46,031 nucleotides of DNA, taken from NCBI GenBank assembly GCA_036387335.1, contig DASVTZ010000048.1, positions 1-46,031 of the forward strand, written 5' to 3'. This DNA is from Longimicrobium sp. (GTDB taxonomy: Bacteria; Gemmatimonadota; Gemmatimonadetes; Longimicrobiales; Longimicrobiaceae). A program made the position numbers and the translations under genes. This document shows, one piece after another, positions 4,946 to 29,756 of this stretch (positions are counted from its first letter, which is position 1; every line of letters starts with the position of its first letter). The notes under the pieces were generated by a model. It had not been told where the DNA came from, ran no database searches, and worked only from the letters and a program-made list of their open reading frames with translations.

Positions 4946-5146
4946 TCAGGCGCGCTTCTCCAGCACGCCCGCCATCGAATCGTACGCGTAGATCCGTTCC
5001 AGGCCGCCTACCGCCTCCTCGAGGTCTCCATCGGAGATCTCGAGCGCGGCCAGGAGCTCATCGGACTGCTGCTGCGGCGGTTGAGGCGGCGCCGCGGTGC
5101 GCGCCGGGCCCGGAGCCCAGCCACGCAAAAGGTTGAAGATGGACAC
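4946..5146 (-). CDS. Putative RiPP precursor peptide with double-glycine leader
   Basis: The 66-residue product has a Pro/Gln-rich N-terminal part, an acidic leader stretch LEISDGDLEEAVGG, and then an 18-residue tail LERIYAYDSMAGVLEKRA. A leader ending in D/E-rich helix plus GG is typical of peptides cleaved by C39 peptidases. The tail has no Cys, Ser is single and Thr is absent, so a thioether product is unlikely. The GTG at 5146 is preceded by AGAGGAAG at 5 bases. A longer version starting at GTG 5176 or 5179 would overlap the stop of the upstream NHLP gene and be coupled to it. The product could instead be a small non-RiPP protein. Confidence 0.6.
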   Translation of the reverse strand: MSIFNLLRGWAPGPARTAAPPQPPQQQSDELLAALEISDGDLEEAVGGLERIYAYDSMAGVLEKRA

Positions 5147-5172
5147 GGCGCTTCCTCTTGGAGGAGGGTGGA

Positions 5173-5469
5173 TCACCACGGCGCGGGGGGCGGCGACGGC
5201 GGCGGATCGTCCTCGCCGCCGGCGGCGGCGTCCAGCTGGTCGTCGTCCAGCTCCACCTGGCCGTTCTCCAGGTCCGGGAGCACGATCAGGGTGTCCACGT
5301 CCGCGGGCTTCTCGATGAAGCGCAGCCGGTGCGACGAGGGGAGCCGCACGCCGAATGCGTCATAGATCGCCTGCTCCGGCTGGGTGAGAAGACGCTTGCG
5401 GAACACCTCGTCGGTGGCGGCGCGAAGCGATGCATCCCGCAACAGTCTGTCGTTGCCTGGATCGGACAT
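5173..5469 (-). CDS. NHLP-family (nitrile hydratase leader peptide) RiPP precursor
   Basis: The 98-residue protein matches the shape of NHLP precursors: an alpha-nitrile-hydratase-like leader (FRKRLLTQPEQAIYDAFG, then RLRFIEKPADVDTLIVLPD), an acidic segment (LDDDQLDAAAGG) and a short core after the double glycine, EDDPPPSPPPAPW. The core is unusually Pro-rich and ends in Trp. NHLP leaders are known to go with the NHLM export genes; a full set lies at 12174-20334, 7 kb away. The ATG at 5469 starts MSDPGND; the upstream in-frame extension to 5553 looks unlike a leader. The ribosome site is weak. This is not a nitrile hydratase: there is no metal-binding claw motif (C-x-x-C-S-C). Confidence 0.8.
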   Translation of the reverse strand: MSDPGNDRLLRDASLRAATDEVFRKRLLTQPEQAIYDAFGVRLPSSHRLRFIEKPADVDTLIVLPDLENGQVELDDDQLDAAAGGEDDPPPSPPPAPW

Positions 5470-5602
5470 GATGACACTCACTGCAAGGGGTGAGGAGCCA
5501 GGAACCCACGCGAACAACGTGCAATACACATGCCCGATACAGGCGCAAAACACCTACGTTGGAGGGCCTAACACGAGCTTAATTCGCTCTCCTCGGCACG
5601 TT

Positions 5603-15240: not shown

Positions 15241-17442
15241 TTACTCCATCGCGATCAGCTGGCTGTAGGCGCCGCCGCGAGCCTTGAGCTCGTCGTGGGT
15301 GCCGCGCTCCACGATGCGGCCGCGGTCCAGGACGACGATCTCGTCGCAGTCGCGGATGGTGCTCAGGCGGTGCGCCACGATCAGGCACATGCAGCCGCGG
15401 CGGCGCAGGTTGTCGTCGATCTCCTTTTCGGTGATCGGGTCCAGGGCGCTCGTGGCTTCGTCCAGCACCAGCAGGGTGGGGTTGTTCACCAGGGCGCGCG
15501 CGATCTCCAGCCGCTGGCGCTGCCCGCCGCTGAAGTTGCGGCCGCCCTCCTCCACCTTCCCCGAATAGCCGCCGGTGCGCGCGCTGATCTCGTCGTGGAT
15601 GCACGCGTCGCGGGCCGCCTGCACCAGGTCCGCGTCGGAGACGGTGTCGTCCCACATCGTCAGGTTCTCGCGGATCGTTCCCTCGAAGAGGAAGATGTCC
15701 TGGTCCACCACCGCCAGGCTGCTGATGAGGGTGCGGCGCGCGTGCCCGGCGCGCGGGAGCCCGTCCAGCAGCACCTGCCCGGCCCACGGGTCGTAGAGGC
15801 CGCTCACCACCCGCGCCACGGTGGACTTGCCGCTCCCCGAGCCCCCCACCAGCGCCACCCGGCTCCCGGGCTTGAGGGTGAGGTTGAAGTCCTGGATGAG
15901 CGCGGGCTCCAGCCGGCTGTAGCCAAAGGACATCCGCTGGATCTCCAGGTGCCCGTCGAGCTTGGTGCGGTGCGCCTCCTCGTCGGGCGCCTCGTGGGTG
16001 TAGCGCACCTCGGCGCGCAGCACGTCGTCCAGCCGGTTCAGATCGCTCCCCACCTCGTGCAGGGTGCTCCCCAGCGCCACCAGCCGGTTGACCGGGGTGA
16101 GGAAGGCGAGCATCAGCGCCTGGAACGCCACCAGCATCCCCATGCTCATCTCGCCGTCCATCACCCGCTGCCCGCCCAGCCCCAGCACCAGCGTGCTGCT
16201 GAGCGCCATCAGCAGGGTGGGGAGCACGGAAAGGAGCTGCGTCTGCCCGCCCAGCTCCTGCTTGGCGTTCACCACCTTGGCGTACTGCCCCGCCCAGCGC
16301 GCGAAGAAGTCGCTCTCCGAGCCGGTGCTCTTGAGCGTTTCGATGTTCATCAGCCCGCCCATGGTGGTGCCCACGGAGCGGCCGTAGTCCTTGGCCAGGC
16401 GGTAGCTGAGGTCGGTGCGCCTGCGCGACACCGCCACGAGCGCCACGATGTTGAGGGCGGCGGTCGCCACCACCACGGCCGTCATCCACAGGTCGTAGCC
16501 GGACATGAGCACGGCGTAGAACGCCACCACCACGATGCTGAGCAGCGTCGTCGCCAGCTCGCCCGAAAGGACGTGCGCGGCGCGGTCGTTGAGCCCCACG
16601 CGCGACGCGATCTCGCCCGGAAAGCGCTGCGAGAGGAACTGCATGGGAAGGTGCAGGACGTGCCAGAAGAAGCGGGTGGAGGCCGTGAGCGACAGCTTCG
16701 TCTCCAGCCGCAGCAGGTAGAGCTGCTGCAGCCAGGTGAGCGCGGCCATGAAGAGCGCGGTGACCCCCATGGCCGCCAGGAGCGGCGTCACCCAGTCGCT
16801 CAGCCCGCGGATGAGCACGGCGTCCACGTACACGCGTGAGAAGGTGGGCACCACCAGCCCCGGCACCACCAGCGCCAGCCCCGCGAGCACGATGAAGGCG
16901 AGCGCGGCGTGCGAGCGCGGCAGGCGGCGACGCAGCGCGCTCACCAGCGAGCGCCCTTCGCCGCCGGGCTTGAACTCGGGCCCCGGCTCCATGACCAGCG
17001 CCACGCCCGTGAACGACTCGTCCAGCTCCTTGTCCGACACGACGCGAGGGCCGTACGCCGGGTCGTTGAGGAAGACCCGCCCCCTGGACCCGAACCCCTC
17101 CAGCACCAGGAAGTGGTTGAAGTTCCAGTGCACGATCATGGGGAGCGGCATGCGGCGCAGCGCCGCGGGCTCCAGCTTGTACCCCTTGGAGGTGAGCCCG
17201 AAGGTGCGGGCCGCGCGCACGATGTTGCTGGCCTTGCTCCCGTCGCGCGAGATGCCGCAGGCGATGCGCAGCTCCTCCAGCGGCACGTAGCGCCCATGGT
17301 GGGCCAGGATCATGGCGAGCGAGGCGCCCCCGCACTCCACCGCCTCCATCTGGAGCACGGTGGGCACGCGGCGGCGCCGGGGCGAGGGTGGGGCGTCCTC
17401 GCCGCCGGCGCGGCCCCGCGCGCGTTCCAGGAGCGCGGTCAT
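15241..17442 (-). CDS. NHLM-type bacteriocin ABC transporter with C39 leader peptidase
   Basis: The 733-residue protein has an N-terminal C39 peptidase with Gln31, Cys37 (QMEAVECGGAS), His110 (HWNFNHFLVLEG) and Asp127 (FLNDPAYG), the full catalytic set. It then has a six-helix exporter domain and a nucleotide-binding domain with GGSGSGKST, FSGGQRQRLEIARAL, LLVLDEATSALD and IVAHRLST. Its job is to cut the leader after a double glycine and export the core. The precursors in this window (4946-5469 and 23413-23989) all carry GG, so they are the likely substrates. The ATG at 17442 overlaps the HlyD stop as ATGA, so translation is coupled. Confidence 0.93.
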   Translation of the reverse strand: MTALLERARGRAGGEDAPPSPRRRRVPTVLQMEAVECGGASLAMILAHHGRYVPLEELRIACGISRDGSKASNIVRAARTFGLTSKGYKLEPAALRRMPLPMIVHWNFNHFLVLEGFGSRGRVFLNDPAYGPRVVSDKELDESFTGVALVMEPGPEFKPGGEGRSLVSALRRRLPRSHAALAFIVLAGLALVVPGLVVPTFSRVYVDAVLIRGLSDWVTPLLAAMGVTALFMAALTWLQQLYLLRLETKLSLTASTRFFWHVLHLPMQFLSQRFPGEIASRVGLNDRAAHVLSGELATTLLSIVVVAFYAVLMSGYDLWMTAVVVATAALNIVALVAVSRRRTDLSYRLAKDYGRSVGTTMGGLMNIETLKSTGSESDFFARWAGQYAKVVNAKQELGGQTQLLSVLPTLLMALSSTLVLGLGGQRVMDGEMSMGMLVAFQALMLAFLTPVNRLVALGSTLHEVGSDLNRLDDVLRAEVRYTHEAPDEEAHRTKLDGHLEIQRMSFGYSRLEPALIQDFNLTLKPGSRVALVGGSGSGKSTVARVVSGLYDPWAGQVLLDGLPRAGHARRTLISSLAVVDQDIFLFEGTIRENLTMWDDTVSDADLVQAARDACIHDEISARTGGYSGKVEEGGRNFSGGQRQRLEIARALVNNPTLLVLDEATSALDPITEKEIDDNLRRRGCMCLIVAHRLSTIRDCDEIVVLDRGRIVERGTHDELKARGGAYSQLIAME

Positions 17443-18743
17443 CGCCCGGCTCGCGACGCGAGGTCGGCCGGCCCGGCGGCGCCGATCCCCAGGAAGCGGC
17501 GGAGCTGCGGCACCACCAGCAGGATGGGCCGGCGGCGCTCCACCACGATGTTGGCGTCGGCCAGCGTGCCGCTCTGGATGCGGATGGGCGGGCCGCTGGA
17601 CGACGACCAGCGGTACTGCGTGGCGCTGGCCGCGTCGGGAATCAGGTCGGCGTGCACCTCGTAGGGCGCGTCCTGCCCTGAGAGCGCCGTCACCAGTTGA
17701 GCGTTCTTGAGCACGCGCTGCATCCCCTGCGGCGTGCTGGGGAAGTCGGAGGCGTACGTCACCCGACCCAGCAGGTAGCCGTACTCCTCCTTCTTGACCG
17801 TGGAGGGGACGATCTGGATCTCCATCCCCGGCTTGATCTTCTTGCCGTGCAGCGAGGGGACGTAGACCACCGCCTCCAGGTTCTTGACCGCCTTGCCGGC
17901 CAGGCTCACCGTCATGATGGGCTCGCCGCGGTCCACCAGACCGCCCTGCTCGGCCATCACCTCCAGCACGCGCCCCGTGTACGGCGAGGTCACCTCGGAC
18001 TGCAGGCGCAGGTCGTTCTCCAGCTTTTCCAGGTTGCGCTCGGCCTCGTGCAGCTGGTTGCGGCTGGCGAGGAGCTCCTGCTCCTTCTGGTTGCCGGCCT
18101 GCAGGCTCTCCACGTTCAGCTGCACCAGCTGGCTGCGGTCCGCGCGGATGCGCTCCTTCACCGTCTCGTGCTCCTGGCGGGAGCGGAGGAGGTTCTGCCG
18201 CGTCATCAGCCCCTGCTGCACCAGCCGCTCCTCGTTGGCGATGCGCTCGGTGAGCGCCGCCAGCGTGGCCTCGGAGGCCTGGATCGACTGTTCCAGGTTG
18301 GTGCGGCGCTGCGCCTGCGAGGCGGCCTGCAGCTGCCGGTCGCGGTCCACGAACGACCCCACGCGGCGGTACTGCCCCTCCAGCTCGGCCACGCGCGAGC
18401 GGGCGTTCCTCACCTGCTCGCTCAGCTCCGGCTGCGACAGGCGGGCGATGACCTGCCCCTCGCGGATGGTGTCGCCCACGCGGATGGAGAGGTCGGATAC
18501 GAGGCCGCCGCTCTGGGCGACCACCTCGTACACGCCGCCGCTGCGCAGCAGGATGGCCTGCGCCGCGATGCGCTCGGGGATGCTCCCCACCACGCTCCAC
18601 GCGATGGCGACCACCAGGAGCGCCGCCAGCCCCGTGAGCGCCAGCCACCCCTTGGGCGTGGCCACCTGCATGAGCTCGTCGAGCTGGTCGGGCGAACCCA
18701 GGCGGTCGAGCGCGACCTTTCGGAAGATGTCCGGCTTGGCCAT
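17439..18743 (-). CDS. HlyD-family membrane fusion protein of NHLM-type secretion system
   Basis: The 434-residue protein has one N-terminal transmembrane helix (WLALTGLAALLVVAIAWSVV, about residues 33-52). It has a split biotinyl-lipoyl domain (GGVYEVVAQSGGLVSDLSIRVG and SPYTGRVLEVMAEQGGLVD) around a long coiled coil rich in Glu, Gln and Arg (about residues 105-235). It links the inner-membrane ABC pair to the TolC channel. The start is MAKPDIF at 18743; no strong ribosome site is seen. It sits 34 bases after the TolC gene. Confidence 0.9.
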   Translation of the reverse strand: MAKPDIFRKVALDRLGSPDQLDELMQVATPKGWLALTGLAALLVVAIAWSVVGSIPERIAAQAILLRSGGVYEVVAQSGGLVSDLSIRVGDTIREGQVIARLSQPELSEQVRNARSRVAELEGQYRRVGSFVDRDRQLQAASQAQRRTNLEQSIQASEATLAALTERIANEERLVQQGLMTRQNLLRSRQEHETVKERIRADRSQLVQLNVESLQAGNQKEQELLASRNQLHEAERNLEKLENDLRLQSEVTSPYTGRVLEVMAEQGGLVDRGEPIMTVSLAGKAVKNLEAVVYVPSLHGKKIKPGMEIQIVPSTVKKEEYGYLLGRVTYASDFPSTPQGMQRVLKNAQLVTALSGQDAPYEVHADLIPDAASATQYRWSSSSGPPIRIQSGTLADANIVVERRRPILLVVPQLRRFLGIGAAGPADLASRAGR

Positions 18744-18777: not shown

Positions 18778-20334
18778 CTACTGCCGCGGAGCGGCGGGCG
18801 CCCACGACGTGATGCGTTCCGGGTCCGCGGCGGCCTCTCCGTCGCCGTCGCCCAGCAGGGCGCCGGTGTGGAAGCGCAGCTGGGCGACCGCCACCGCGTA
18901 GCGCCGCCGGGTGCCGATCCAGCCGAGGAGCGCGCCGGTGCGCCCGTCCTCCACCTGGATGACCTCCAGGAGGGTGGAGGTGCCCAGCTTGAACTTCTCG
19001 TTCTCGCTCTCCACCGAAAGCCGGTGCAGCCGCACCGCCTCGCGCGAGATCTCCAGCTCCTCAACGGCGCGGCGCAGCGATTCGGCCGCGAGCGCCGCGT
19101 CCAGCGCGATCTGCCGCGTGAGCTCGTCCAGGAAGAGGGATGCGCGCCGGTCCGCGGCGGTGCTCCGCATCACCTGCCCCGCCGCCACGTTGCGCGTCAG
19201 CGGCAGCGCGTACGACAGCGCCACCTGCGCGTTGAAGCCGTGCGTGCTGGCGTAGAAGGGCGAGAAGAGCCGCTCGAACTGCGCCCCGCTCTCCAGCCCG
19301 GTGTAGCCCACGCCCACGCTCAGGTCCACGCGCGGCGCCGCCTCGCTGCGGCTTCCGCGCAACGACGCGCGCGCGGCGGCCACGCGGCTGCGCGCAGCAT
19401 CCAGGTCCGCGCGCCGCTGCAGCGCCTCGGCCACGCTCGCCTCCTCGGCGGGGACGGCGGCGGCACCGCCCGGCGGCGCGATGGGGAGCGAGTCGGCCGG
19501 GAGCGGCAGCGTGGCGAAGCTCTCCGCGCCGAGCCCCACCGCCCGCACCAGCGCCTGCCGCGCGGACGACACCGACCCCTCGCCGCCCAGCCGCGCGGCG
19601 CGCTTGGAGGCCAGGCTGGCCTGCACGGCGAGCCGGTCCGACGCGGGGCGGGCGTCGGCCGCGATCAGCGTCTCCGTCTGCCCGACCAGCGTGCGGGCCC
19701 GCTCTTCGGACTCACGCAGCACGTCCAGCGACTGGAGGGCGGCCACGTAGCCCCAGTACGCCGTGACCGCGTCCAGCACGCGCAGCGCCTGCAGCTGGCG
19801 AAGCTCGCCGCGGCTGGCGTCGAGCGAGGCGGAGGCGGCGCGCTCGCCGGCGCGCAGCCCTCCCCCGCCCCGCCCCCGCCCCAGCGGCACCAGCAGGTCC
19901 AGCCGCGCCACCCCGGTGTTGCGCGTGGGCGCCCCCTCCGCGTCGATCCCCTGGCGGTTGTAGGAGAGGCTGGGCGAGAGCACGAGCCCCGGCCGCAGGC
20001 GCCAGTCCACCCCCGCCGTGTAGTCCAGCCCGCGGCTCTGTGTGGTGGAAGGCCCCGTCTCCGCGTTGCCGAGCGAGGGGTTCCCCGCGCGCTCGCTGGT
20101 GACGCTGGCGAGCGCCTGCGGGTCGAAAGCGCCCCTGGCCTGGCGGAGCGTGCCCTCCTGCGCGTGCACGTCCCACTGCCCCAGCGCGATGTCCGCGTTG
20201 CGGGCCAGGGTGGCGCGGACCACTTCGGCCAGGGTGAGGCGCGGGCCGGGCGGGGCCTGCTGCGCGCGCAGGGGCGCGCTCCCGGCGCCCAGGGCCAGGA
20301 GGAGGATGCCGAACCGGCTCGCCGCGTTGCTCAT
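18778..20334 (-). CDS. TolC-family outer membrane efflux protein
   Basis: The 518-residue protein has a signal peptide (FGILLLALGAGSAPLRAQ) followed by the duplicated TolC/OEP pattern: LTLAEVVRATLARNADIALGQ at the start of half 1, long Ala/Arg/Glu-rich helices, and FKLGTSTLLEVIQVEDGRTGA near the end of half 2. It would form the outer-membrane duct for the HlyD/ABC exporter transcribed just after it. The ATG at 20334 is chosen because the signal peptide starts there and GCAGG is upstream; in-frame extension to 20376 adds an unlikely hydrophilic stretch. Confidence 0.88.
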   Translation of the reverse strand: MSNAASRFGILLLALGAGSAPLRAQQAPPGPRLTLAEVVRATLARNADIALGQWDVHAQEGTLRQARGAFDPQALASVTSERAGNPSLGNAETGPSTTQSRGLDYTAGVDWRLRPGLVLSPSLSYNRQGIDAEGAPTRNTGVARLDLLVPLGRGRGGGGLRAGERAASASLDASRGELRQLQALRVLDAVTAYWGYVAALQSLDVLRESEERARTLVGQTETLIAADARPASDRLAVQASLASKRAARLGGEGSVSSARQALVRAVGLGAESFATLPLPADSLPIAPPGGAAAVPAEEASVAEALQRRADLDAARSRVAAARASLRGSRSEAAPRVDLSVGVGYTGLESGAQFERLFSPFYASTHGFNAQVALSYALPLTRNVAAGQVMRSTAADRRASLFLDELTRQIALDAALAAESLRRAVEELEISREAVRLHRLSVESENEKFKLGTSTLLEVIQVEDGRTGALLGWIGTRRRYAVAVAQLRFHTGALLGDGDGEAAADPERITSWAPAAPRQ

Positions 20335-20516
20335 CTCGCACCTGCCCGGAGCTGGGGTATCTTCGTCGGCGGGCATCCCCGTCCGATTCGCCGCATCATC
20401 GTTCACCCTCGCGGAGCGGGCGAAGGCCACTGAGCCGCGCGAGATCCGCCCTCGGGTGCATCCCTCGACCGCCTTTCCGTCGTCCCGACGCGCCACTTCG
20501 TGGCGGCCGCGCCGCC

Positions 20517-21062
20517 TCACGCGAGCGGAGCCAGCGCCGGCCGTACGCGCGGGGCGAGCTGGTGCCAGGCCAGCGGGAGCCACGCGGTGAACGTCTCCGG
20601 GTAGTCGCGGAGGGCGGCTTCCAGGGCGTCCACCGGGCACCACCGCCAGGCGCCCACCTCGGAGGGGTCGGGAAGCGGCACGCCGCTCCAGACGCCGGAG
20701 AATACGTGGTCGAGCTCGTGCTCCACGAGGCCGTTGCCCAGCTCGGCGCGGTAGGTGAAGTGCCCGGCGCCGGCCAGCGCGCAGTCGAAGCCCATCTCCT
20801 CGCGCAGCCTGCGGTGCGCCGCATCCTCCACCGCCTCGCCGGGGCGGGGATGGCTGCAGCAGGTGTTCGACCAGAGGCCGCCCGAGTGGTACTTGCCGTC
20901 CGCGCGCCGCTGCAGGAGGAGCGAGCCCGCCGCGTCGAAGACGAACACGGAGAAGGCGCGGTGAAGGAGCCCCTCCTGGTGCGCCCGCAGCTTTCCCGCG
21001 GTGCCCACCGGGGCATCGTGCGCGTCCACCAGCACCACCTCGCCGTCCAGGTCGCCGTGCAT
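20517..21062 (-). CDS. idi: Isopentenyl-diphosphate delta-isomerase, type I
   Basis: The 181-residue Nudix protein has the family landmarks: HRAFSVFVFD, LLLQRRADGKYHSGGLWSNTCCSHP (active-site Cys region), PGEAVEDAAHRRLREEMGF (Nudix-type helix), and HELDHVFSG. It converts IPP to DMAPP. The ATG lies one base past the stop of the isoprenoid-synthase-like gene (TGACATG), so the two are translated together. The pairing suggests DMAPP is supplied to the neighbour's prenyl chemistry. Confidence 0.92.
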   Translation of the reverse strand: MHGDLDGEVVLVDAHDAPVGTAGKLRAHQEGLLHRAFSVFVFDAAGSLLLQRRADGKYHSGGLWSNTCCSHPRPGEAVEDAAHRRLREEMGFDCALAGAGHFTYRAELGNGLVEHELDHVFSGVWSGVPLPDPSEVGAWRWCPVDALEAALRDYPETFTAWLPLAWHQLAPRVRPALAPLA

Positions 21063-21063
21063 G

Positions 21064-23283
21064 TCAGACGGCCACGGCGAGCGGCGCCTGGGCGGCCTGG
21101 CGCGCGCGATTGCGCACGCCCACCGCCGCGGCCTCGGTGCGCGCGCGCTCCATGTAGCCCCGGAAGACGGCCAGCCACTCCCGCCAGTCGTCCAGCGGCA
21201 GGTGCGCCACGAGGGCATCGGCCGCGTCCAGGTGCGCGATGGAGACGTCCAGCACCTTCTCCGCCTCGCCGTCGCAGTAGAGGGCGCGGGCGAACGCGGA
21301 GGGCTCCTCCGCCTCGCGCAGCTCAGGCCGGGCGGAGAGGACGTGCCCCACCACCAGCGAGGGGCCGCGCTCGCGCAGGTCCTTGCGCCAGTCCTTGAGG
21401 TCGTCCCAGTAGTACGAGGCCATGTCGAAGTGCTCGATCGACTTCGCCAGCGCCTCCACGTTGCTCTGGTCGCCCGCCAGCGCGGCCATCCCGTGCACCA
21501 CGATGGCGGCGAAGGGAAACTTCCCCTCGGCGATGCGCACGGACATCTCGCGGGTTACCAGTGAGCGGTCCTCGCCGCCGGTGCGCAGCCTGCGCTCCAG
21601 CCCGCAGGCGCGGGTGTACAGGGCAAAGGTCTCGCGGAAGCGGTCCCAGAAGGGCGAGTCCGCGGGAAAGAGCCCCTGGAAGAGGCGGTACGCCTCGAAC
21701 TGCATGGCCACGGCGCGCAGGTAGAGCTGGCCGTGGTCGTAGTTCTTGTGGCCGTCCACGATCTTGTCGGCCATGAAGGCGGACTCGAAGTAGACGCGGC
21801 ACGCCAGCGCGAAGCGGCTCACCGCCTCCTCGGGCACGCTCGGAAAGACCGGGTGGAGGATGAAGGGATAGGCCTGGTACAGCACTCCCTCGTTCCCCTC
21901 GATCCAGAGGAGGATGTCGTCGGGCCAGTGCCGCTGCAGCTCCAGCAGGAGCGGCTCGGCGGCGTTCCGCTTCGCGCGCAGACGGGCGACAGGGGTCATG
22001 GCTGGCTCCTTCCGGGTACGTGTGGGTGGAAGCGTCGCCGCCCTGCGCGGCCCCGCGGACCTTGGTTCCGTCTGGCGGACCGAGGCCGGCACGGGGCGCG
22101 CGGCGTCCGCGCGCTCCACCGGCCCCCGCTCCCGCCCCAGCCTTTCCAGCAGCCCCGCCGCCGCGCCGAAGCCGTCCCTCGCGCCGAACGCCGCACGCGC
22201 GGCGCGGGCACCCCGGCGCAGCGGCTCGCTCGTCATGGCTGCGCCGATCGCCCGCCGCAGCCCCTGGCCGTCCACCTCCGCGGGGACCCCCGCGCCGCAG
22301 CCGGCCCTCTCCGCCCAGTGGGTGAGGGTGACGGACTCGCTGCTCACCGGCACCAGCAGGCTGGGCACTCCGTGGGCGGCGGCGCCCAGCACGGCGGTGG
22401 TGGTGGATCCGCACACCACCGCCGCGGCGCGGGGGAGCACCAGCCCCTGCGGCACGTGCGGCTCGGCGATGAAGTTGGGCGGCAGCGGCCCGGCGGGTAC
22501 GTCCATCCGCGCCGTGGAGGCCACCACCTGCACCGGCCCGCAGGCGAGCGCGTCCACCAGCCGGGGCCAGAAGCCGGGCCCGCCGAAGGAGCGCCCCGCC
22601 TGCGCGTAGACCAGCGGCGCGTCCGGCGCGGCGAAGCGGGCGCGCAGGGCGGCCCACTCGGCGGCTTCGTCGCGCGGCGGCTCCCACAGGCAGGCGCCCG
22701 CCGCGTGCACCCGCGCGGGGAAGGCGGCGAGCTCCGGCTCCAGCCGCGGCACCGTGCGCAGGAGGAAGAGGTCCCCCAGCAGCGGGTGGTCTTCCGGGCC
22801 CCACTCGCCGGGGGCGAGGCGGCAGAGCGCCCGCACCTCGTTGAGCAGGCGGAGGTTGTCCACCAGGTGGCCGTGCCGGCGCGACTCCACCTCGCGCGGG
22901 GCGGCCGCTTCGCCGCGGCGCGCGGCGGGCCACAGGTACGACGCCGTCCCCATCACGGCCAGCGGCAACCCGCTCCGCTCGCGCGCCACCAGCGCGGACT
23001 GGCAGAGCTGGTGCGTCACCAGTACGTCGGGCCGAAAGCGGCGGGCCGCCTCCTCCACCTGCTTCACTCCGAGGACGGCGGCGGGGGCGAGCCCCCACAC
23101 GCGGATGTCGAAGCACCGCTCGTCGTCGCCGTGCTGCGCCAGGCCCGCCTCGTCCAGCAGCGGCCGCGCGGAGGGGCCGGTGACGAAGGCGGCCTCGTGC
23201 CCCCGGCGCCGAAGCTCCAGCGCCATCCCCGCCATGGGGAAGAGGAAGCCCGGGGTGGTGAACGAGCAGAACAGGTAGCGCAC
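21064..23283 (-). CDS. Glycosyltransferase fused in frame to class I isoprenoid-synthase-like domain
   Basis: A single 739-residue open frame. Residues 1-~395 are a UGT/MGT-type glycosyltransferase: MRYLFCSFTTPGFLFPM, FRPDVLVTHQ, PHVPQGLVLPRAAAVVCG and GVPSLLVPVSSE. After a Pro/Arg-rich linker, residues 429-739 form an all-helical isoprenoid-synthase-like domain with DKIVD (weak first Asp motif) and YYWDDLKDWRKD, a good DDxxDxxxD second motif. An internal ATG at 21999 is preceded by GGAAGGAG at 6 bases, so the second domain may also be made alone (311 aa). The start is GTG 23283 with GGGAG 5 bases upstream. It follows the precursor genes and precedes idi; it may glycosylate or prenylate a product. 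Confidence 0.8.
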   Translation of the reverse strand: MRYLFCSFTTPGFLFPMAGMALELRRRGHEAAFVTGPSARPLLDEAGLAQHGDDERCFDIRVWGLAPAAVLGVKQVEEAARRFRPDVLVTHQLCQSALVARERSGLPLAVMGTASYLWPAARRGEAAAPREVESRRHGHLVDNLRLLNEVRALCRLAPGEWGPEDHPLLGDLFLLRTVPRLEPELAAFPARVHAAGACLWEPPRDEAAEWAALRARFAAPDAPLVYAQAGRSFGGPGFWPRLVDALACGPVQVVASTARMDVPAGPLPPNFIAEPHVPQGLVLPRAAAVVCGSTTTAVLGAAAHGVPSLLVPVSSESVTLTHWAERAGCGAGVPAEVDGQGLRRAIGAAMTSEPLRRGARAARAAFGARDGFGAAAGLLERLGRERGPVERADAARPVPASVRQTEPRSAGPRRAATLPPTRTRKEPAMTPVARLRAKRNAAEPLLLELQRHWPDDILLWIEGNEGVLYQAYPFILHPVFPSVPEEAVSRFALACRVYFESAFMADKIVDGHKNYDHGQLYLRAVAMQFEAYRLFQGLFPADSPFWDRFRETFALYTRACGLERRLRTGGEDRSLVTREMSVRIAEGKFPFAAIVVHGMAALAGDQSNVEALAKSIEHFDMASYYWDDLKDWRKDLRERGPSLVVGHVLSARPELREAEEPSAFARALYCDGEAEKVLDVSIAHLDAADALVAHLPLDDWREWLAVFRGYMERARTEAAAVGVRNRARQAAQAPLAVAV
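22006..22013 (-). promoter_or_regulatory. Internal ribosome binding site within the fusion gene
   Basis: On the minus strand this reads GGAAGGAG, 6 bases before an in-frame ATG (21999) that begins the isoprenoid-synthase-like domain. It is one of the best ribosome sites in the window, which argues for independent translation of the C-terminal part. Confidence 0.7.
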
Positions 23284-23412: not shown

Positions 23413-23583
23413 CTACTGGATCGACTGCTGCTCTTCGAACGACTTGTTCGTGCCGCAGGTCATGTCCCAGCACCCGCCGGCGGCTTCCTCCAGGCTCTGG
23501 TCGTCGAGCTCTTCCACGTCGAGGTCGTCGGCGTTGAGGCTCACCAGCTCGTCTTCGGGCTTGCCCTGATTCGCTTCGCTCAT
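23413..23583 (-). CDS. RiPP precursor peptide 1, GG leader and Cys core
   Basis: The 56-residue peptide has a 37-residue acidic leader beginning MSEANQGKPEDELVS, followed by ADDLDVEELDDQSLEEAAGG. The core after GG is CWDMTCGTNKSFEEQQSIQ. Its first 26 codons are identical in sequence to precursor 2 and the ribosome site GGAGGTGGATCC is shared, so the two arose by recent duplication. Two Cys at core positions 1 and 6 are the obvious targets for a radical SAM/SPASM enzyme such as the one at 24168-25676, and the GG fits the C39 transporter. The type of cross-link cannot be read from the sequence. Confidence 0.85.
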   Translation of the reverse strand: MSEANQGKPEDELVSLNADDLDVEELDDQSLEEAAGGCWDMTCGTNKSFEEQQSIQ

Positions 23584-23661: not shown

Positions 23662-23808
23662 CTACCCGAAAGCGGAGCCGCTGCCGCAGTCACATTCGCG
23701 GCACCCGCCGGCGGGGGCGCCGGCGCGGGGGCTGATCAGCTCGTTTTCCGGCCCTTCCCCGCCGCCCCCGTGGGAGCGGCGGGCCCAGCACCGCCGGGGC
23801 CCTGTCAC
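23662..23808 (-). CDS. Diverged third RiPP precursor, possibly degenerate
   Basis: A reading frame of about 48 residues from GTG 23808 ends in GPENELISPRAGAPAGG, then CRECDCGSGSAFG and a stop. PENELIS matches PEDELVS of precursors 1 and 2, and the core keeps Cys1, Cys6, the following Gly-Ser and Phe12; it has an extra Cys at position 4. About 19 residues of the acidic leader are missing, and there is no Met start or ribosome site. It may be translated by re-initiation, since the GTG lies 13 bases past the stop of precursor 2, or it may be a decaying copy. Confidence 0.5.
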   Translation of the reverse strand: MTGPRRCWARRSHGGGGEGPENELISPRAGAPAGGCRECDCGSGSAFG

Positions 23809-23821
23809 GGACGCCAGCGAC

Positions 23822-23989
23822 TCAGACCGCCCGCTGCTCCTCGAACGAGGAGTTGCTGCCGCAGGTCATGTCCCAGCATCCGCCGGCCGCTTCCTCCAGG
23901 TCCTGATCGTTGAGCTCTTCCACGTCGAGGTCGTCGGCGTTGAGGCTCACCAGCTCGTCTTCGGGCTTGCCCTGATTCGCTTCGCTCAT
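23822..23989 (-). CDS. RiPP precursor peptide 2, GG leader and Cys core
   Basis: The 55-residue peptide has the leader MSEANQGKPEDELVS, then ADDLDVEELNDQDLEEAAGG, and the core CWDMTCGSNSSFEEQRAV. GAGGTGGATCC precedes the ATG by a few bases. It is the first of the three tandem copies and lies 178 bases downstream of the radical SAM/SPASM stop. The core differs from precursor 1 only at the T/S and K/S positions and in the tail after FEEQ. The invariant CWDMTCG suggests these residues are the modified part and the tail is variable. Confidence 0.85.
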   Translation of the reverse strand: MSEANQGKPEDELVSLNADDLDVEELNDQDLEEAAGGCWDMTCGSNSSFEEQRAV

Positions 23990-24167: not shown

Positions 24168-25676
24168 CTACAGGTCGCAGACGCGCGTGTCCTCCACGAT
24201 GGCGGCGCCGGCCACGTGGTCCAGGTACGCCTGCGCCACCGAGTGGCGGAAGCGGTCGCCGTAGCCGTCGCAGTAGTTGGAGTAGAACTTCCCGTTCTGC
24301 CCCTCGGCCAGCACCGCGCACCCCCCGCCGCAGTGCAGGGCGTAGCGGCACTTGCGGCAGGTGGGGTTGCTGGCGGGGGTGCGGCTGCGCCACATCTTGG
24401 TGAGCCCCGCGTTCATCTCCACCCCGCCGTCGTCCAGCACGCGGCCGATGCGCACCTTCTCGTCGCCCGTGCGCTCCCAGCACGCGTAGATGTCCCCGAA
24501 CTGGTCGAAGATGTACATCCCCGTGTGCGCGCCGCAGAAGCTGCTCTTGAGGTGCGGAAGTCCGTGCGCGCGGTCTTCGAACAGGCGGCGGGCGCGGGCC
24601 TGCAGCCCGTCGTCAGGCCGGCCGATCACGCGCATGTCCGGGAAGGCGATGCGCAGGTCGTCGATGGTCTCGTCCAGCTCCCAGGTGGTGGCGAAGCCGG
24701 TCTGGAACTTGGCGTTGGCGTTGCCGTGCACCACGCGCGCGGTGTACACCGAGAAGCCGCGCCGCCGGTCCCACCCGCGCGCCACGATCTCCTCGGCCAG
24801 CCGCGGCACGTGCAGGATGTTGGTCTTGTCCAGGTTCATGCGCACGGAGACGATGGCGCCCCGGTCCAGGCACAGGTCGATGTTGCGCGCGATCTGGTCG
24901 AACGAGCCGCTGCCGTCCGCGTGGATGCGGCGCTTGTTGTGCTCCTCCGGCGGGCCGTCGAGCGTGATCTGCACCGAGGCGATCCCCTCCGGCCCCAGCA
25001 GGTCCTCGTAGGCCTCCAGCTCGGTGGCGTTGCTCACCGCCCAGAAGCGCACCGGGCCCATGTCGCGCGCGCCCTTGATGATGTACTCGATGATCGGCCG
25101 GTTGACGGCCAGAAAGGGCTCGCCGCCGTAGAAGCCGATGTTGCGCGTGAACTCCACGCCCTCTTCCCAGCCGTGCTCCGCCTCCAGGGTGGGCATGGCG
25201 GCGAAGATGCGGTCCACCATCTCCGGGGTGATGACGTTGAGGAGGCGCGCGTACTGCGGGTCCGTGCGCATGTGGTCCTGGAAGCAGTACGGGCAGCGCA
25301 GGTTGCAGTTGTAGGTGGGCATGAAGATGTACGACGTGCCCTGCTGCAGGGCGCGCTGGTGCCGCTTCTTGGCCGTGCGCGCGAAGAAGCCCTCCTCTTC
25401 CTCGAAGTCCATCACCGTCATGTAGCCGCGCTGCTTCAGCAGCTCCACGGTGCGGTCCGACGGCGCGTACGTGCTCACCGGGCGCTCCGCCGCCGGGTCC
25501 GACTTCCACTCGCCGTGCAGCGGCTTGTGCGCGGGCCCCCGCTCCTGCGAGCGGAGGTAGTCGCCCACCGTGCGCGAGACCTTGTCGTAGGCGCCCGTGT
25601 AGCCATGCACCAGGAGCATTTCGCCGGCGTCTTCCGGGATGTCCACGTAGATGGTGTAGCTGCTCGTCCGAAGCAT
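24168..25676 (-). CDS. Radical SAM/SPASM peptide maturase
   Basis: The 502-residue protein has a PqqD-like winged-helix N-terminal region (about 5-95, YTIYVDIPEDAGEMLLVHG). The radical SAM cluster motif is C124-x3-C128-x2-C131 (TYNCNLRCPYCF), followed by FYGGEPFL and QITLDGPPEEHNKRR. A C-terminal SPASM domain has Cys in SSFCGAH, ACWERTG, NPTCRKCRYALHCGGGCAV and YCDGYG, enough for two extra iron-sulfur clusters. Such enzymes form thioether, C-C or related cross-links on RiPP cores. The three precursors with Cys1/Cys6 lie directly downstream, so they are the likely substrates. ATG 25676 has GGAGA 6 bases upstream; the longer start at 25745 is less likely. Confidence 0.92.
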   Translation of the reverse strand: MLRTSSYTIYVDIPEDAGEMLLVHGYTGAYDKVSRTVGDYLRSQERGPAHKPLHGEWKSDPAAERPVSTYAPSDRTVELLKQRGYMTVMDFEEEEGFFARTAKKRHQRALQQGTSYIFMPTYNCNLRCPYCFQDHMRTDPQYARLLNVITPEMVDRIFAAMPTLEAEHGWEEGVEFTRNIGFYGGEPFLAVNRPIIEYIIKGARDMGPVRFWAVSNATELEAYEDLLGPEGIASVQITLDGPPEEHNKRRIHADGSGSFDQIARNIDLCLDRGAIVSVRMNLDKTNILHVPRLAEEIVARGWDRRRGFSVYTARVVHGNANAKFQTGFATTWELDETIDDLRIAFPDMRVIGRPDDGLQARARRLFEDRAHGLPHLKSSFCGAHTGMYIFDQFGDIYACWERTGDEKVRIGRVLDDGGVEMNAGLTKMWRSRTPASNPTCRKCRYALHCGGGCAVLAEGQNGKFYSNYCDGYGDRFRHSVAQAYLDHVAGAAIVEDTRVCDL

Positions 25677-25751: not shown

Positions 25752-26969
25752 TCAGCTCACCAGCAGCGGCGCCTCGGCGCGCGGAGCGGCGGGGGCGGGT
25801 CCGGCCACCACCACCAGCCCCTGCCCCACCAGCTTGCCCAGCAGGCTGCGTACTGTGTCGCGGTCCACCTGGCCGGCCGCTTCCGCCACCACCCGGGCGA
25901 TGCTCACCGGCTGGCCCTGGAGGAGCGGCTCCACGATGGGCCGCGCGGAGGGGGCGAGCCGCAGCCGCTTGCCCGCGGCCACCAGTTGCACCCGGCCGTC
26001 GGGGGTCTCGGTGAGGGTGGCGTCGCGCGCGGCGGGGAGCTGCACCAGGAAGTCGTCGGTGGGGGGGAGCCCCTCCGCCATGGCGCTCCACGGGAGCCCG
26101 GCCGTCTGCTGCGGCCGCGCGCGGCTCTCCAGGTGCGCGTAGAAGCGGTCCACCAGGTCGGGAGTCAGCTGCGCCAGCAGGTCCTGGCGCAGCAGCTCCA
26201 CGTGCTCCGCGCGCGCCGCCGCCGTGGCGAAGCGCGGCAGGTCCTTGCGCGTGACGGCCGACGCGGCGCAGAGCTGGTCCACCATCCAGAGGAGGAGGTG
26301 GCGCCCGTTGTGGACGTCCACGCCGAAGGTGAGGTGCAGCGACGGCTCCTCCATGGGCACCGCCACGTGCCACCACCCGCGGGGGATGTACAGCAGCTCC
26401 CCCTCGCCCAGGATGCCGTCCCACACCACCTCTTCGGGCGGCGGGTACGACCCGTCCAGCGCGTGCGAGATGGGGTAGGGCCGGTTGTCGCCGTAGACGC
26501 GCCAGTGCTTGCGCCCCGCCACCTGTAGCACGAACACGTCGTGCTCGTCCCAGTGCAGGTCGAACCCCTTGGTGGAGCGCCACCCGGCGTACATGTTGAC
26601 GGTCACGGGCTCGCGGAAGGCGCGCGAGATGGCCTCGGCCAGCTCCCCGATGGGGGCGTACATCTGGTCGATGCGGTTGATGTTGAGCGTGGCCCCCTCG
26701 CGCAGGTGCCGCGTGAGCGCGGACGGCACCACCCGCGGAAAGGGCTGCTCCTGCACGTACGCCGTCCGCGCCACCGGCTTGCCGTCGGTCACCAGCCGCA
26801 GCCGCTGCGCGTCGAAGCTGTGCTCCGCCAGGATGCGGTTGAGCGCGTCCCACGGAAGGAGGTCGGCGAACTTCCCCGGCCAGCCCGGGACGTGCTCGAA
26901 GCGCTTGCCCCAGGAATCGCGGATGAACTCGTCCACGGTGTGGGGCGCGAAGAGGCGGTCGATCAGCAT
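25752..26969 (-). CDS. JmjC/cupin-type Fe(II) oxygenase with C-terminal winged helix
   Basis: The 405-residue protein resembles bacterial ribosomal-oxygenase-like cupins (YcfD/RoxA): WGKRFEHVPG at the N-terminus, NMYAGWRSTKGFDLHWDEHDVF with the HxD iron ligands His139 and Asp141, and YIPRGWWHVA with the distal His201. The last ~110 residues look like the dimerising winged-helix tail. The expected reaction is 2-oxoglutarate-dependent hydroxylation, here most likely of a peptide. The start overlaps the stop of the GT9-like gene (ATGCTGA), so the two are translationally coupled. It lies 75 bases before the radical SAM gene, consistent with a shared peptide substrate. Confidence 0.85.
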   Translation of the reverse strand: MLIDRLFAPHTVDEFIRDSWGKRFEHVPGWPGKFADLLPWDALNRILAEHSFDAQRLRLVTDGKPVARTAYVQEQPFPRVVPSALTRHLREGATLNINRIDQMYAPIGELAEAISRAFREPVTVNMYAGWRSTKGFDLHWDEHDVFVLQVAGRKHWRVYGDNRPYPISHALDGSYPPPEEVVWDGILGEGELLYIPRGWWHVAVPMEEPSLHLTFGVDVHNGRHLLLWMVDQLCAASAVTRKDLPRFATAAARAEHVELLRQDLLAQLTPDLVDRFYAHLESRARPQQTAGLPWSAMAEGLPPTDDFLVQLPAARDATLTETPDGRVQLVAAGKRLRLAPSARPIVEPLLQGQPVSIARVVAEAAGQVDRDTVRSLLGKLVGQGLVVVAGPAPAAPRAEAPLLVS

Positions 26970-28441
26970 GCGATGGTTCCAGGTAGCGGGGGCTCTGCGC
27001 GACGGGGGCGTACGGTGGGGCGCCGGCGCCGCGGCGGCCCCGTGTCGCCCTCGCCGCGCGCGGCGCGCCGCCGGGCCACCATCGCCTCCACCGCGGCCAC
27101 CACGCGCCGCGCGTCCAGGCGGTCCCACAGCGCCTCGGCGAAGGCCACGTGGGCCGGGTGGTCGCTCACGCCCCGCCCCAGCAGCGGGTTGTCCTCAGGC
27201 TGAAGCGCGATCCCCTCCACGTACGGGTAGTACGCGGTGCGGCTCTCGGGCGTCATGGAGGTGAAGAGGACCACGGCCGGCACGTCGAAGGCGTCGGCCA
27301 GGTGGTAGGCGCACGTGTCGGTGCTCACCACCATGTCCGCCCGCGCCACCAGGTGCGCGAAGTGGTCGAAGGTGCGCGAGTGCGCCGACCAGTCCAGGAA
27401 GCGGGGATGGTCCACCGCCAGCGGCACCGCGCTCGCCACGCGCCACCCGGTGAGCTCCAGCAGCTCGTGGACGAAGCGGGCGGCCCGCTCCGCCGGAAAG
27501 GTGCGGATGGGGGTGGAGCTCTGCGGGTGGAAGAGGAGCACCGGCGCGCCGCCGCCGTCCGCCGCGAGCCCGTTCGCCAGCTCCGCCGCGACGGCCGGCG
27601 ACGGGGGGAACGACATCCGCTTGCGCGACGCGGGGACGGCGCGGGGGTCGAGCCCGCAGGCGTCCATGCAGATGTCTACCCAGTGCGCATCGGCCGTTAC
27701 GCGCTCCCCCGTGAGATCCAGGTACGCGTCGTAGCCCGTGAGGAGCTGCACGGGTGCGGGAAGAAAGTGGATTCCGTCGATCAGGCCGGAGCGGCGGAAG
27801 AGCGCTTCCGCCTCGGCGTTACATCGGTGCTGCACCAGGTCAAGCGTGACCTCGTCGAAGCGCGCTTCCAGGGTGGCGCGCAGCTCGCGGAGGGCGCAAA
27901 GGCCCAGCAGTGTGTCGCCGAAGGCCAGGTGGAGGATGTTGACGACGGCCACCCGCACCGCGCGCCGCCCCTGGAGCAGCTCCAGCGCGCTCGCCAGCGG
28001 CGCGAACTCGCCGGTGGCTCCCAGGCGTCCCACGCGTGCCGGCATCCCGCGCTGCGCCAGCAGCTTGGCCTGCGCCCCGGCGGAGAGCACCTTGAGCACG
28101 TCCGGGCATCCGCGCGCCCGCGCGCGCCTGGCGTACTCGTTGAGCGCGCCGAAGAAGACGGGCGAGTTGGCCAGGTGCACGTCGCGCCCGGTGAGGCGCC
28201 CGTCGCGCGGGGCCTCCAGGCGGAGGGCGAGCTCGCCGGGGGCGGCGGGGGGCGCCTCTCCCGCGGGGTGGATGGAGTACACGGAGACGTCCGACCCGCG
28301 GCCGTAGTAGCGCACCCGCACGTCCAGCGGCTCGGTGACGTAGAAGAGCGTCGCCGAACGGGCGTCCGGGGGGAGGACGCCCGCGGAACGCCTCGCACCC
28401 CGTTCGAGCGTGTCTGCTGTGCCGGCGGGGCGAGCGTTCAT
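26963..28441 (-). CDS. GT9/heptosyltransferase-like glycosyltransferase
   Basis: This 492-residue protein has a C-terminal ~280-residue half that matches the GT9 heptosyltransferase fold: VAVVNILHLAFGDTLLGLCALRELR, GYDAYLDLTGE, LLFHPQSSTPIRTFPAERAARFV, and ADMVVSTDTCAYHLADAFDVPAVVLF. The N-terminal ~200 residues are unusual for the family and have no clear match; they might bind the acceptor. I infer transfer of a sugar to the peptide or a lipid acceptor. The ATG at 28441 (MNARPAG) follows AGGAAGCAGG; a longer frame to 28636 would run through the promoter. Its end overlaps the cupin start by 7 bases. Confidence 0.75.
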   Translation of the reverse strand: MNARPAGTADTLERGARRSAGVLPPDARSATLFYVTEPLDVRVRYYGRGSDVSVYSIHPAGEAPPAAPGELALRLEAPRDGRLTGRDVHLANSPVFFGALNEYARRARARGCPDVLKVLSAGAQAKLLAQRGMPARVGRLGATGEFAPLASALELLQGRRAVRVAVVNILHLAFGDTLLGLCALRELRATLEARFDEVTLDLVQHRCNAEAEALFRRSGLIDGIHFLPAPVQLLTGYDAYLDLTGERVTADAHWVDICMDACGLDPRAVPASRKRMSFPPSPAVAAELANGLAADGGGAPVLLFHPQSSTPIRTFPAERAARFVHELLELTGWRVASAVPLAVDHPRFLDWSAHSRTFDHFAHLVARADMVVSTDTCAYHLADAFDVPAVVLFTSMTPESRTAYYPYVEGIALQPEDNPLLGRGVSDHPAHVAFAEALWDRLDARRVVAAVEAMVARRRAARGEGDTGPPRRRRPTVRPRRAEPPLPGTIAC

Positions 28442-28556
28442 CCTGCTTCCTGGCGGTGCGGAGACCGGGACGGGGGACCGAAGATCGGTCGTGAAGGGCG
28501 TGCCCGGCGGGGGTGCGCCCCAGGCACGCGGCCCTGGCACGACATCCCTACTGAGC

Positions 28557-28620
28557 AAGATAGATCCGAAAAAACGTTCTTCAAGATACCGTTCGAACGG
28601 AAACGGGCGCCGAACAAACG
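28557..28620 (-). promoter_or_regulatory. Promoter with bipartite operator upstream of GT9-cupin-radical SAM genes
   Basis: On the minus strand the order is CGTTTGTTCGGCGCCC (28605-28620), 4 bases, the 12-bp palindrome CCGTTCGAACGG (28589-28600), 4 bases, a -35-like TTGAAG (28579-28584), 16 bases, and a -10-like TATCTT (28557-28562). The same bipartite element is upstream of the nucleotidyltransferase gene, with identical spacing. The position upstream of -35 suggests an activator site. Confidence 0.7.
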
Positions 28621-28652
28621 TCGCGCTCCGGGCCATGCGGGCGGCGGCGCGT

Positions 28653-29756
28653 CTACTCCGCGCCCCTTCCCAGCATGCCCGTGACTCCCCCCAGCCAGGG
28701 GTTGATGACCCGCCGCCTGCGCGCGCGCTCGTCGGTGTCGCGGCGGGGCGCGCGCAACACGTACTCGCGGATAACGGGAAGGATGCGCTCGTCGGCAGGC
28801 CTCCACTCCACCTCCGGCAGCAGCCCCGCCGGGATGGGCGCGTGAAGGATCTCGCGCGTCAGCCGCAGCGTCACCGCCACCAGCTTGGCCGCGTTCCAGG
28901 CGCGCGCCGTCGCCTCCACCCGCTCCCAGTCCACCCGCGGCTCCGCGCGCGCGGCCCAGGCGATGTCGCACAGCTTCTGGACGGTGATGTTGAAGCCGTG
29001 GTGAAAGGAGGCGTGCAGGCACAGGTGGAGGAGGAGGTCTTCGGGCGAGAACGCCAGCAGCTCCGCGTCGTGGAAGCCGGCCGGCCGCACCCGCGCCCAC
29101 AGGTCGTCCATGCGCAGGGTGAAGGGGCTCGCCGGCGGTCCGCCCCCGCGCGGGTGCCCCACCGCGTCGATCGACCAGTGCAGCTCCACCTCGAGCTCCC
29201 CCTCCTTCTGCATGGGAACGAGGTGGTGGTTGCACGCGTACACCGGCTCCAGATGGGGGTGGTTCTCCGGACGGTAGCCCAGCTCCAGCAGGACGCGGTA
29301 CGCGCGCTCGATGTCCGGGCGCGGCACCAGCAGGTCCACGTCCTCCATGCAGCGGAAGGCGGGGTCGCCGTACACGCCGCGCGCCAGGTACGCCCCCTTG
29401 AGCACCACCGCGGGGATTCCCGCCCCGCCCAGCTCGCGGGCCACTTCGGCCAGCCCCCGGTACATCCGCGCGTTCGAGCTCGAGGTGGCCGCGTACGCCT
29501 CCTCCATCGCCCGGGCGGCGGCGGGGGGCACCGCCAGCCCCGGCTCGTCGGCGAGCCGCGCGCCCACCAGCGGGGCCACTTCGTGACGGAGCGCCCGCGC
29601 CACCAGCACCTCCCATTCGGCGGCGGTCAGCGCGGCGAGCCGCTCCACGAGGGGCTCACCGGCTCGCAGCGACAGGCAGGCGGCCAGCAGGTCGCGGGGA
29701 GTGCCGCCCGCCACGTCCGCGTCCACCGGCTCGGCCAGCAACGGGATCTGCGCCAT
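28653..29756 (-). CDS. Nucleotidyltransferase-family protein (NTP_transf_5 type)
   Basis: The 367-residue protein has the nucleotidyltransferase core IPAVVLKGAYLARGVYGDP (Lys120) followed by the metal-binding CMEDVDLLVPRPD (Asp139, Asp141), then VELHWSIDA and LLHLCLHASFHHGF. Members of this family often sit in RiPP and peptide gene clusters, where their substrate is mostly unknown. It begins its own transcript at a promoter that shares an operator with the gene that follows it. AGAGG precedes the ATG by about 8 bases. It is probably an accessory enzyme that adenylylates a peptide or sugar; that is inference. Confidence 0.82.
   Translation of the reverse strand: MAQIPLLAEPVDADVAGGTPRDLLAACLSLRAGEPLVERLAALTAAEWEVLVARALRHEVAPLVGARLADEPGLAVPPAAARAMEEAYAATSSSNARMYRGLAEVARELGGAGIPAVVLKGAYLARGVYGDPAFRCMEDVDLLVPRPDIERAYRVLLELGYRPENHPHLEPVYACNHHLVPMQKEGELEVELHWSIDAVGHPRGGGPPASPFTLRMDDLWARVRPAGFHDAELLAFSPEDLLLHLCLHASFHHGFNITVQKLCDIAWAARAEPRVDWERVEATARAWNAAKLVAVTLRLTREILHAPIPAGLLPEVEWRPADERILPVIREYVLRAPRRDTDERARRRRVINPWLGGVTGMLGRGAE

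Follow-up and report, generated by a model that had tools for sequence, protein, structure and literature searches.

Does an open reading frame that joins a glycosyltransferase (GT) to an isoprenoid-synthase-like domain specify one bifunctional enzyme, or are two neighboring genes being read as one, and on what would the second domain act? The question is raised by a locus of Longimicrobium sp. (GCA_036387335.1), located in a 46,031-nucleotide stretch of contig DASVTZ010000048.1 that was analyzed as a whole and is referred to here as the window.

One open frame holds two domains and an internal start

On the minus strand, a single frame of 739 codons (21064–23283) extends from a GTG start at 23283 to a stop at 21066–21064 and contains no internal stop. 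A preliminary description had read it as a UGT-type domain running uninterrupted into an isoprenoid-synthase-like domain, and both assignments are supported, the first by profile matches and the second by a fold model. The ATG at 21999–21997 is the first codon of the 311-aa second domain and is preceded by the ribosome-binding site GGAAGGAG, placing site and start exactly at the second domain, as previously described (Table 1). Of the 769 ATGs that the two strands of the whole window contain, just 1.4% are accompanied by a Shine-Dalgarno (SD) match of at least 6 nt; hence the internal start stands above chance, while the duplex energy of the site is less special, being equalled by 12% of window ATGs. 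Judged by these signals, independent initiation of the 311-aa domain, as had been proposed, is likely, and one gene would yield two products of 739 and 311 aa.

Table 1 Features of the joined frame, its surroundings, and two related loci (window positions unless a locus is named).
Feature	Position	Strand	Basis or remark
NHLP exporter permease/ATPase	12174..15137	-	TIGR03797 E 2e-266
C39-peptidase ABC exporter (leader cleavage and export), start approximate	15241..17367	-	PF03412, PF00664, PF00005
NHLP-system HlyD protein, start approximate	17439..18704	-	TIGR03794 E 9e-116
TolC-family outer membrane protein, start approximate	18778..20337	-	PF02321
Isopentenyl-diphosphate isomerase type 1	20517..21062	-	NF002995, TIGR02150 above cut-off; ATG 1 nt past prenyltransferase stop (TGACATG)
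trans-IDS-fold (class I isoprenoid synthase) domain, 311 aa	21064..21999	-	AF2 model; structure alignment; invariant Asp residues
Junction, codons 394-428	22000..22104	-	In frame; codon statistics of non-coding DNA
Ribosome-binding site of second domain, GGAAGGAG	22006..22013	-	6-nt spacer to ATG
GT1-type glycosyltransferase domain, codons 1-393, CalG/EryCIII-like	22105..23283	-	Weak PF06722; TIGR01426 E 9e-14; profile CalG4 E 5e-33
RiPP precursor 2, 56 aa, ...LEEAAGG then CWDMTCGTNKSFEEQQSIQ	23413..23583	-	Strong SD GGAGGTG
RiPP precursor 1, 55 aa, ...LEEAAGG then CWDMTCGSNSSFEEQRAV	23822..23989	-	
Radical SAM/SPASM peptide maturase, CefB/PapB-like, below equivalog cut-offs	24168..25676	-	PF04055, TIGR04085 above cut-off; NF038107 E 3e-34
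JmjC_2 (RoxA-like) oxygenase	25752..26969	-	PF08007 E 5e-25
GT9-like glycosyltransferase, cluster membership inferred	26963..28636	-	PF01075
NTP_transf_5 protein, probable cluster edge	28653..29756	-	PF14907 E 3e-59
trans-IDS-like domain with single-domain class II terpene cyclase, Gemmatimonadota, ChrPC layout	L011 8716-10773; L020 8463-10502		

The junction carries the codon signature of non-coding DNA

In alignments with relatives, glycosyltransferase homology runs out near codon 393, followed by a 35-residue linker rich in Arg, Pro, Ala, and Thr. Across the junction (codons 394–428), G+C at codon positions 1, 2, and 3 amounts to 0.74, 0.80, and 0.80, compared with 0.81/0.58/0.96 and 0.73/0.44/0.96 on either side. 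The dip in third-position G+C (GC3) is confined to this segment, where all of the frame’s lowest 35-codon windows lie, and, taking the first domain’s rate, a GC3 count this low is expected with P 2e-4. Among ten other genes of the window, seven show no stretch as low, and such stretches make up 0.5 to 6.6% of the codon windows of the remaining three. Because the coding GC3 signature drops there, codons 394–428 are probably a former intergenic spacer, a reading based on base composition; weak selection on an Arg/Pro/Thr-rich linker could partly produce the same dip. The lack of a stop codon is in itself unremarkable and was discarded as an argument, since 72% of shuffled versions of the 105-nt junction (78% G+C) lack an in-frame stop.

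Our preferred explanation, which we hold to be rather probable, is that loss of a stop codon joined two neighboring RiPP tailoring genes, that the downstream start was kept, and that the second gene encodes a peptide prenyltransferase. Stop loss is inferred from the two halves: a comparison of fused and split homologues, as suggested in the preliminary description, yielded separate genes for each half alone and, in the genomes searched, no orthologous pair with an intervening stop. As no orthologue of the gene pair was found, a sequencing or assembly error stays a real, if unlikely, rival, by which two distinct genes would exist and an indel of one base within the GT tail would conceal the first gene’s TGA. 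In the +1 frame, a TGA at 21998–21996 does overlap the ATG of the second domain (ATGA). Such an overlap is a textbook coupled gene junction; moreover, the G-rich tail could be prone to indels, the genome is a draft of 265 contigs, and other family members are separate genes. Frame 0, however, remains similar to the G004 GT protein to its end (ERLGRERxP...RxD), and none of the other frames of the junction has coding statistics, so that a real GT tail is not seen elsewhere; a frameshift recognizable as coding in an alternative frame was rejected on the same grounds.

The second domain is a probable trans-IDS-like peptide prenyltransferase

An AlphaFold2 model of the second domain (pTM 0.76, with a two-sequence alignment as input) aligns over 258 residues with the trans-prenyl diphosphate synthase 4lob (VIA Z 19.6, rmsd 3.4), in structure comparisons that covered the chains ranked by Foldseek. 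Prenyl diphosphate synthases are the best matches on this list, which also contains MoeN5 and the Trp prenyltransferase Ord1. At the sequence level, the domain matches neither PF00348 nor any other Pfam model at E-values up to 10, no NCBIfam model names it, and reading the 311 residues by eye revealed neither a GGKRxRP-type motif for the IPP site nor an RRG after motif 1. To our knowledge, very few trans-IDS-type peptide prenyltransferases are known, and the type has no Pfam name.

Two Asp motifs, DKIVD (D78, D82) and DDLKDWRKD (D199–D207), are present as the preliminary description had stated. Its further claim, that the first is degenerate and the chemistry therefore possibly non-canonical, was rejected upon alignment of nine relatives. 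Invariance is limited to columns P45, D78, D82, D199, D200, D203, and D207, whereas position 2 of motif 1 is free to be K, R, A, E, or D (DKLVD in Hymenobacter DG01, DRLMD, DAPID); DKxxD recurs among the relatives, and DKIVD is ordinary for the family. As far as the alignment tells, the conserved core is Asp1 and Asp5 of motif 1 together with DDxxDxxxD of motif 2. ComQ has been shown to require the first and fifth Asp of its motif 1 (PMC5331326).

One residue does set the domain apart from its relatives. Three residues before motif 2, all eight relatives have Gln and only this protein has Tyr (Y196). Gln at this place has been tied to Trp recognition in ComQ, PalQ, ChrPC, and Ord1 (PMC13290415). 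Because a residue linked to Trp recognition is replaced here, the acceptor may differ from Trp, or else Tyr may do the job of Gln.

Overall, the second domain most resembles the trans-IDS-like peptide prenyltransferases ComQ, PalQ, and the P domain of ChrPC. ComQ is likewise trans-IDS-like with the same need for Asp1 and Asp5, but its motif 2 must be NDxxx or GDxxx where DDLKD is found here (PMC5331326). PalQ, the Trp prenyltransferase of Paenibacillus alvei, belongs by its description to the isoprenoid-synthase superfamily, is encoded in an NHLP-type RiPP cluster and lies far from named subfamilies, yet its acceptor is a terminal Trp, whereas the Trp would be internal here (CWDMTCG) (PMC10853753). 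For ChrPC, compared by description, the P domain is reported to be trans-IDS-like as well, to stem from clusters for RiPPs with polycyclic isoprenoids, and to prenylate Trp, while cyclisation of the prenyl group falls to the C domain (PMC13290415); the joined frame differs in having a GT in place of the cyclase domain and in missing the Gln before motif 2. The locus shares with the Trp-prenyltransferase group the isoprenoid synthase fold, Asp1 and Asp5, and a RiPP cluster with a Trp-bearing precursor, and lacks the Gln upstream of motif 2.

Relatives of the prenyltransferase half occur near RiPP genes

Sequence relatives are rare: at an E-value of 0.01, eight of 395 genomes of the phylum contain one, and several of these matches are partial or weak. 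In genome contigs, a single-protein scan found no match and an alignment-based scan found one relative. Two relatives, on MAG RYN_364 and on a Gemmatirosa plasmid, combine the P domain with a C-terminal single-domain class II terpene cyclase, the same layout as that reported for ChrPC (PMC13290415), and the Gemmatirosa gene overlaps a PqqD/M50 gene. Two Hymenobacter plasmids harbor stand-alone versions of 309 and 303 aa, the best match having E 2e-12; either version has downstream of it an M50 gene and an ORF of 49–51 aa in which Trp occurs exactly once. This unnamed trio of trans-IDS-like enzyme, PqqD/M50 protein, and one-Trp ORF (AWSMG, IWSKD; L059 8905-11232, L060 8905-11501) is a candidate minimal prenylated RiPP system. 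The relative in genome G426 has a LanM-type gene 1.2 kb away on the opposite strand.

These surroundings bear on whether the second domain might instead make a prenyl diphosphate or a small terpenoid and modify no peptide. Its best fold matches are indeed prenyl diphosphate synthases, and its motif 2 is a canonical DDxxD, unlike the pseudo-motif of ComQ (PMC5331326). We nevertheless consider this rather unlikely, given the missing PF00348 match, GGKRxRP-type motif, and RRG, three ordinary PF00348 synthases elsewhere in the same genome, and relatives found beside RiPP M50 genes and small ORFs with a Trp. Taking motifs, cluster, and relatives together with the fold of the model, the second domain is a probable trans-IDS-like peptide prenyltransferase.

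None of its relatives has a GT attached. No second GT-prenyltransferase fusion was found in 394–395 genomes of the class or phylum or in 72,556 plasmid records, which speaks against a selected bifunctional enzyme whose fusion would itself work by coupling glycosylation and prenylation of one peptide; the literature searched yielded no such fusion either. An open frame with a 35-residue linker, the encoding of both activities within one RiPP cluster, and the natural fusion of related P domains to another tailoring domain, the cyclase, would suit such an enzyme; the strong internal start and a linker resembling non-coding DNA would not, and we judge it quite improbable.

The joined frame lies in a RiPP cluster with its own isomerase

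Based on its gene content, the joined frame sits in an NHLM-exporter RiPP cluster (Table 1), a context that the preliminary description had not mentioned. The two precursors are near-identical (LEEAAGG-CWDMTCG...) and have a single Trp in the core. Between them, a degenerate third precursor-like ORF (23662–23808, minus strand) ends in APAGG-CRECDCGSGSAFG, has a core without Trp and looks like a decayed or diverged copy. The isopentenyl-diphosphate isomerase gene is one of two copies in the genome, and this is the only one among ten genomes of the genus with two above-cut-off isomerase matches. Since it adjoins the prenyltransferase and is a second genomic copy, the cluster isomerase fits a dedicated DMAPP supply.

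Further RiPP-like genes were observed outside the cluster. A paralogue of the radical SAM maturase, 66% identical and with the same GT9-like gene upstream, lies on contig C126 of this genome (80896–82407, locus L053); the contig ends 0.2 kb past it and a precursor is therefore out of view. Within the window, another RiPP locus is possibly formed by two minus-strand ORFs far from the exporter, one resembling an NHLP-leader precursor (5173–5553; TIGR03793 E 9e-13, slightly below cut-off) and the other small and containing LEEAVGG (4946–5179).

The GT half belongs to a RiPP-linked family

Profile matches to CalG4 (E 5e-33), EspG2, CalG1, and CalG2 place the first half among GT-B enzymes, CalG2, EspG2, and CalG4 being its closest solved structures by sequence profile. 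The catalytic His of the N-terminal GHxxP and the donor-site His of HGG are absent: GFLFP stands where most relatives have GHxxP, and CGS replaces HGG. GFxxP is common to all four compared members of a RiPP-linked GT family, which differs from CalG2, EspG2, and CalG4 in combining GFxxP with the lack of the HGG motif. CalG2 and EspG2 are likewise without the His of GHxxP, so the GFxxP family need not be dead; its acceptor would be a thiol or another ready nucleophile.

The other members are separate genes in three other RiPP clusters, and all four are near RiPP enzymes. A 431-aa stand-alone paralogue of the same genome, 48% identical, adjoins a PqqD/M50 protein and Cys-rich precursors; a 406-aa relative in G004 follows LanM; and a more distant one in G202 lies downstream of LanKC and LanC genes. 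The second RiPP cluster of this genome that holds the paralogue (contig C156, locus L012) contains several Cys-rich precursors (...LDVEELERRLEMA...CGxNxxCxC), the PqqD/M50 protein, and an S8 protease-like gene.

A proposed course of events and its implications

Stop loss between two tailoring genes would imply the following course, the order of which is our proposal. An ancestral operon would have held a GT1-type peptide glycosyltransferase gene beside a trans-IDS-like peptide prenyltransferase gene; once the first stop was lost, ribosomes would read through the old spacer in frame into the second gene, and internal initiation would probably supply free 311-aa prenyltransferase in addition to some 739-aa joined protein. 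An allylic diphosphate would be bound via Mg on the two Asp motifs and ionised, with DMAPP provided by the downstream isomerase, and the prenyl group would pass to the precursor peptide, where the single Trp of the CWDMTCG core would be the likeliest acceptor. Y196 in place of Gln speaks, as a sequence feature, against Trp, and conservation of this Trp is uninformative because the precursors amount to two near-identical copies. Further modification of the peptide would come from the radical SAM, JmjC, and glycosyltransferase enzymes, followed by cleavage behind GG and export through the C39 ABC/HlyD/TolC machine. In a very improbable variant, the joined protein would act as a bifunctional glycosyl- and prenyltransferase on one radical-SAM RiPP, the Gln-to-Tyr change having shifted the acceptor to Cys or to an added sugar, with free prenyltransferase made too.

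The interpretation in the preliminary description is partly supported; besides the cluster context, it lacked the Gln-to-Tyr change and the codon signature of the linker. The locus adds to a known type a putative trans-IDS-like RiPP prenyltransferase that is encoded in a radical SAM cluster, shares its frame with a glycosyltransferase, and is without the putative Trp-recognition Gln. Together with its Hymenobacter and Gemmatirosa relatives, it extends the trans-IDS type to Gemmatimonadota and Bacteroidota, as well as to a RiPP cluster that combines a radical SAM enzyme with an IPP isomerase of its own. Having Tyr in place of Gln by nature, the enzyme offers a direct test of the rule proposed for Trp recognition. 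With its GT half, the locus also points to a small family of RiPP-linked glycosyltransferases, seen with four different RiPP maturation systems. Finally, the fused frame illustrates how easily gene pairs run together in genomes of 72% G+C, a trap for the annotation of ‘fusions’.
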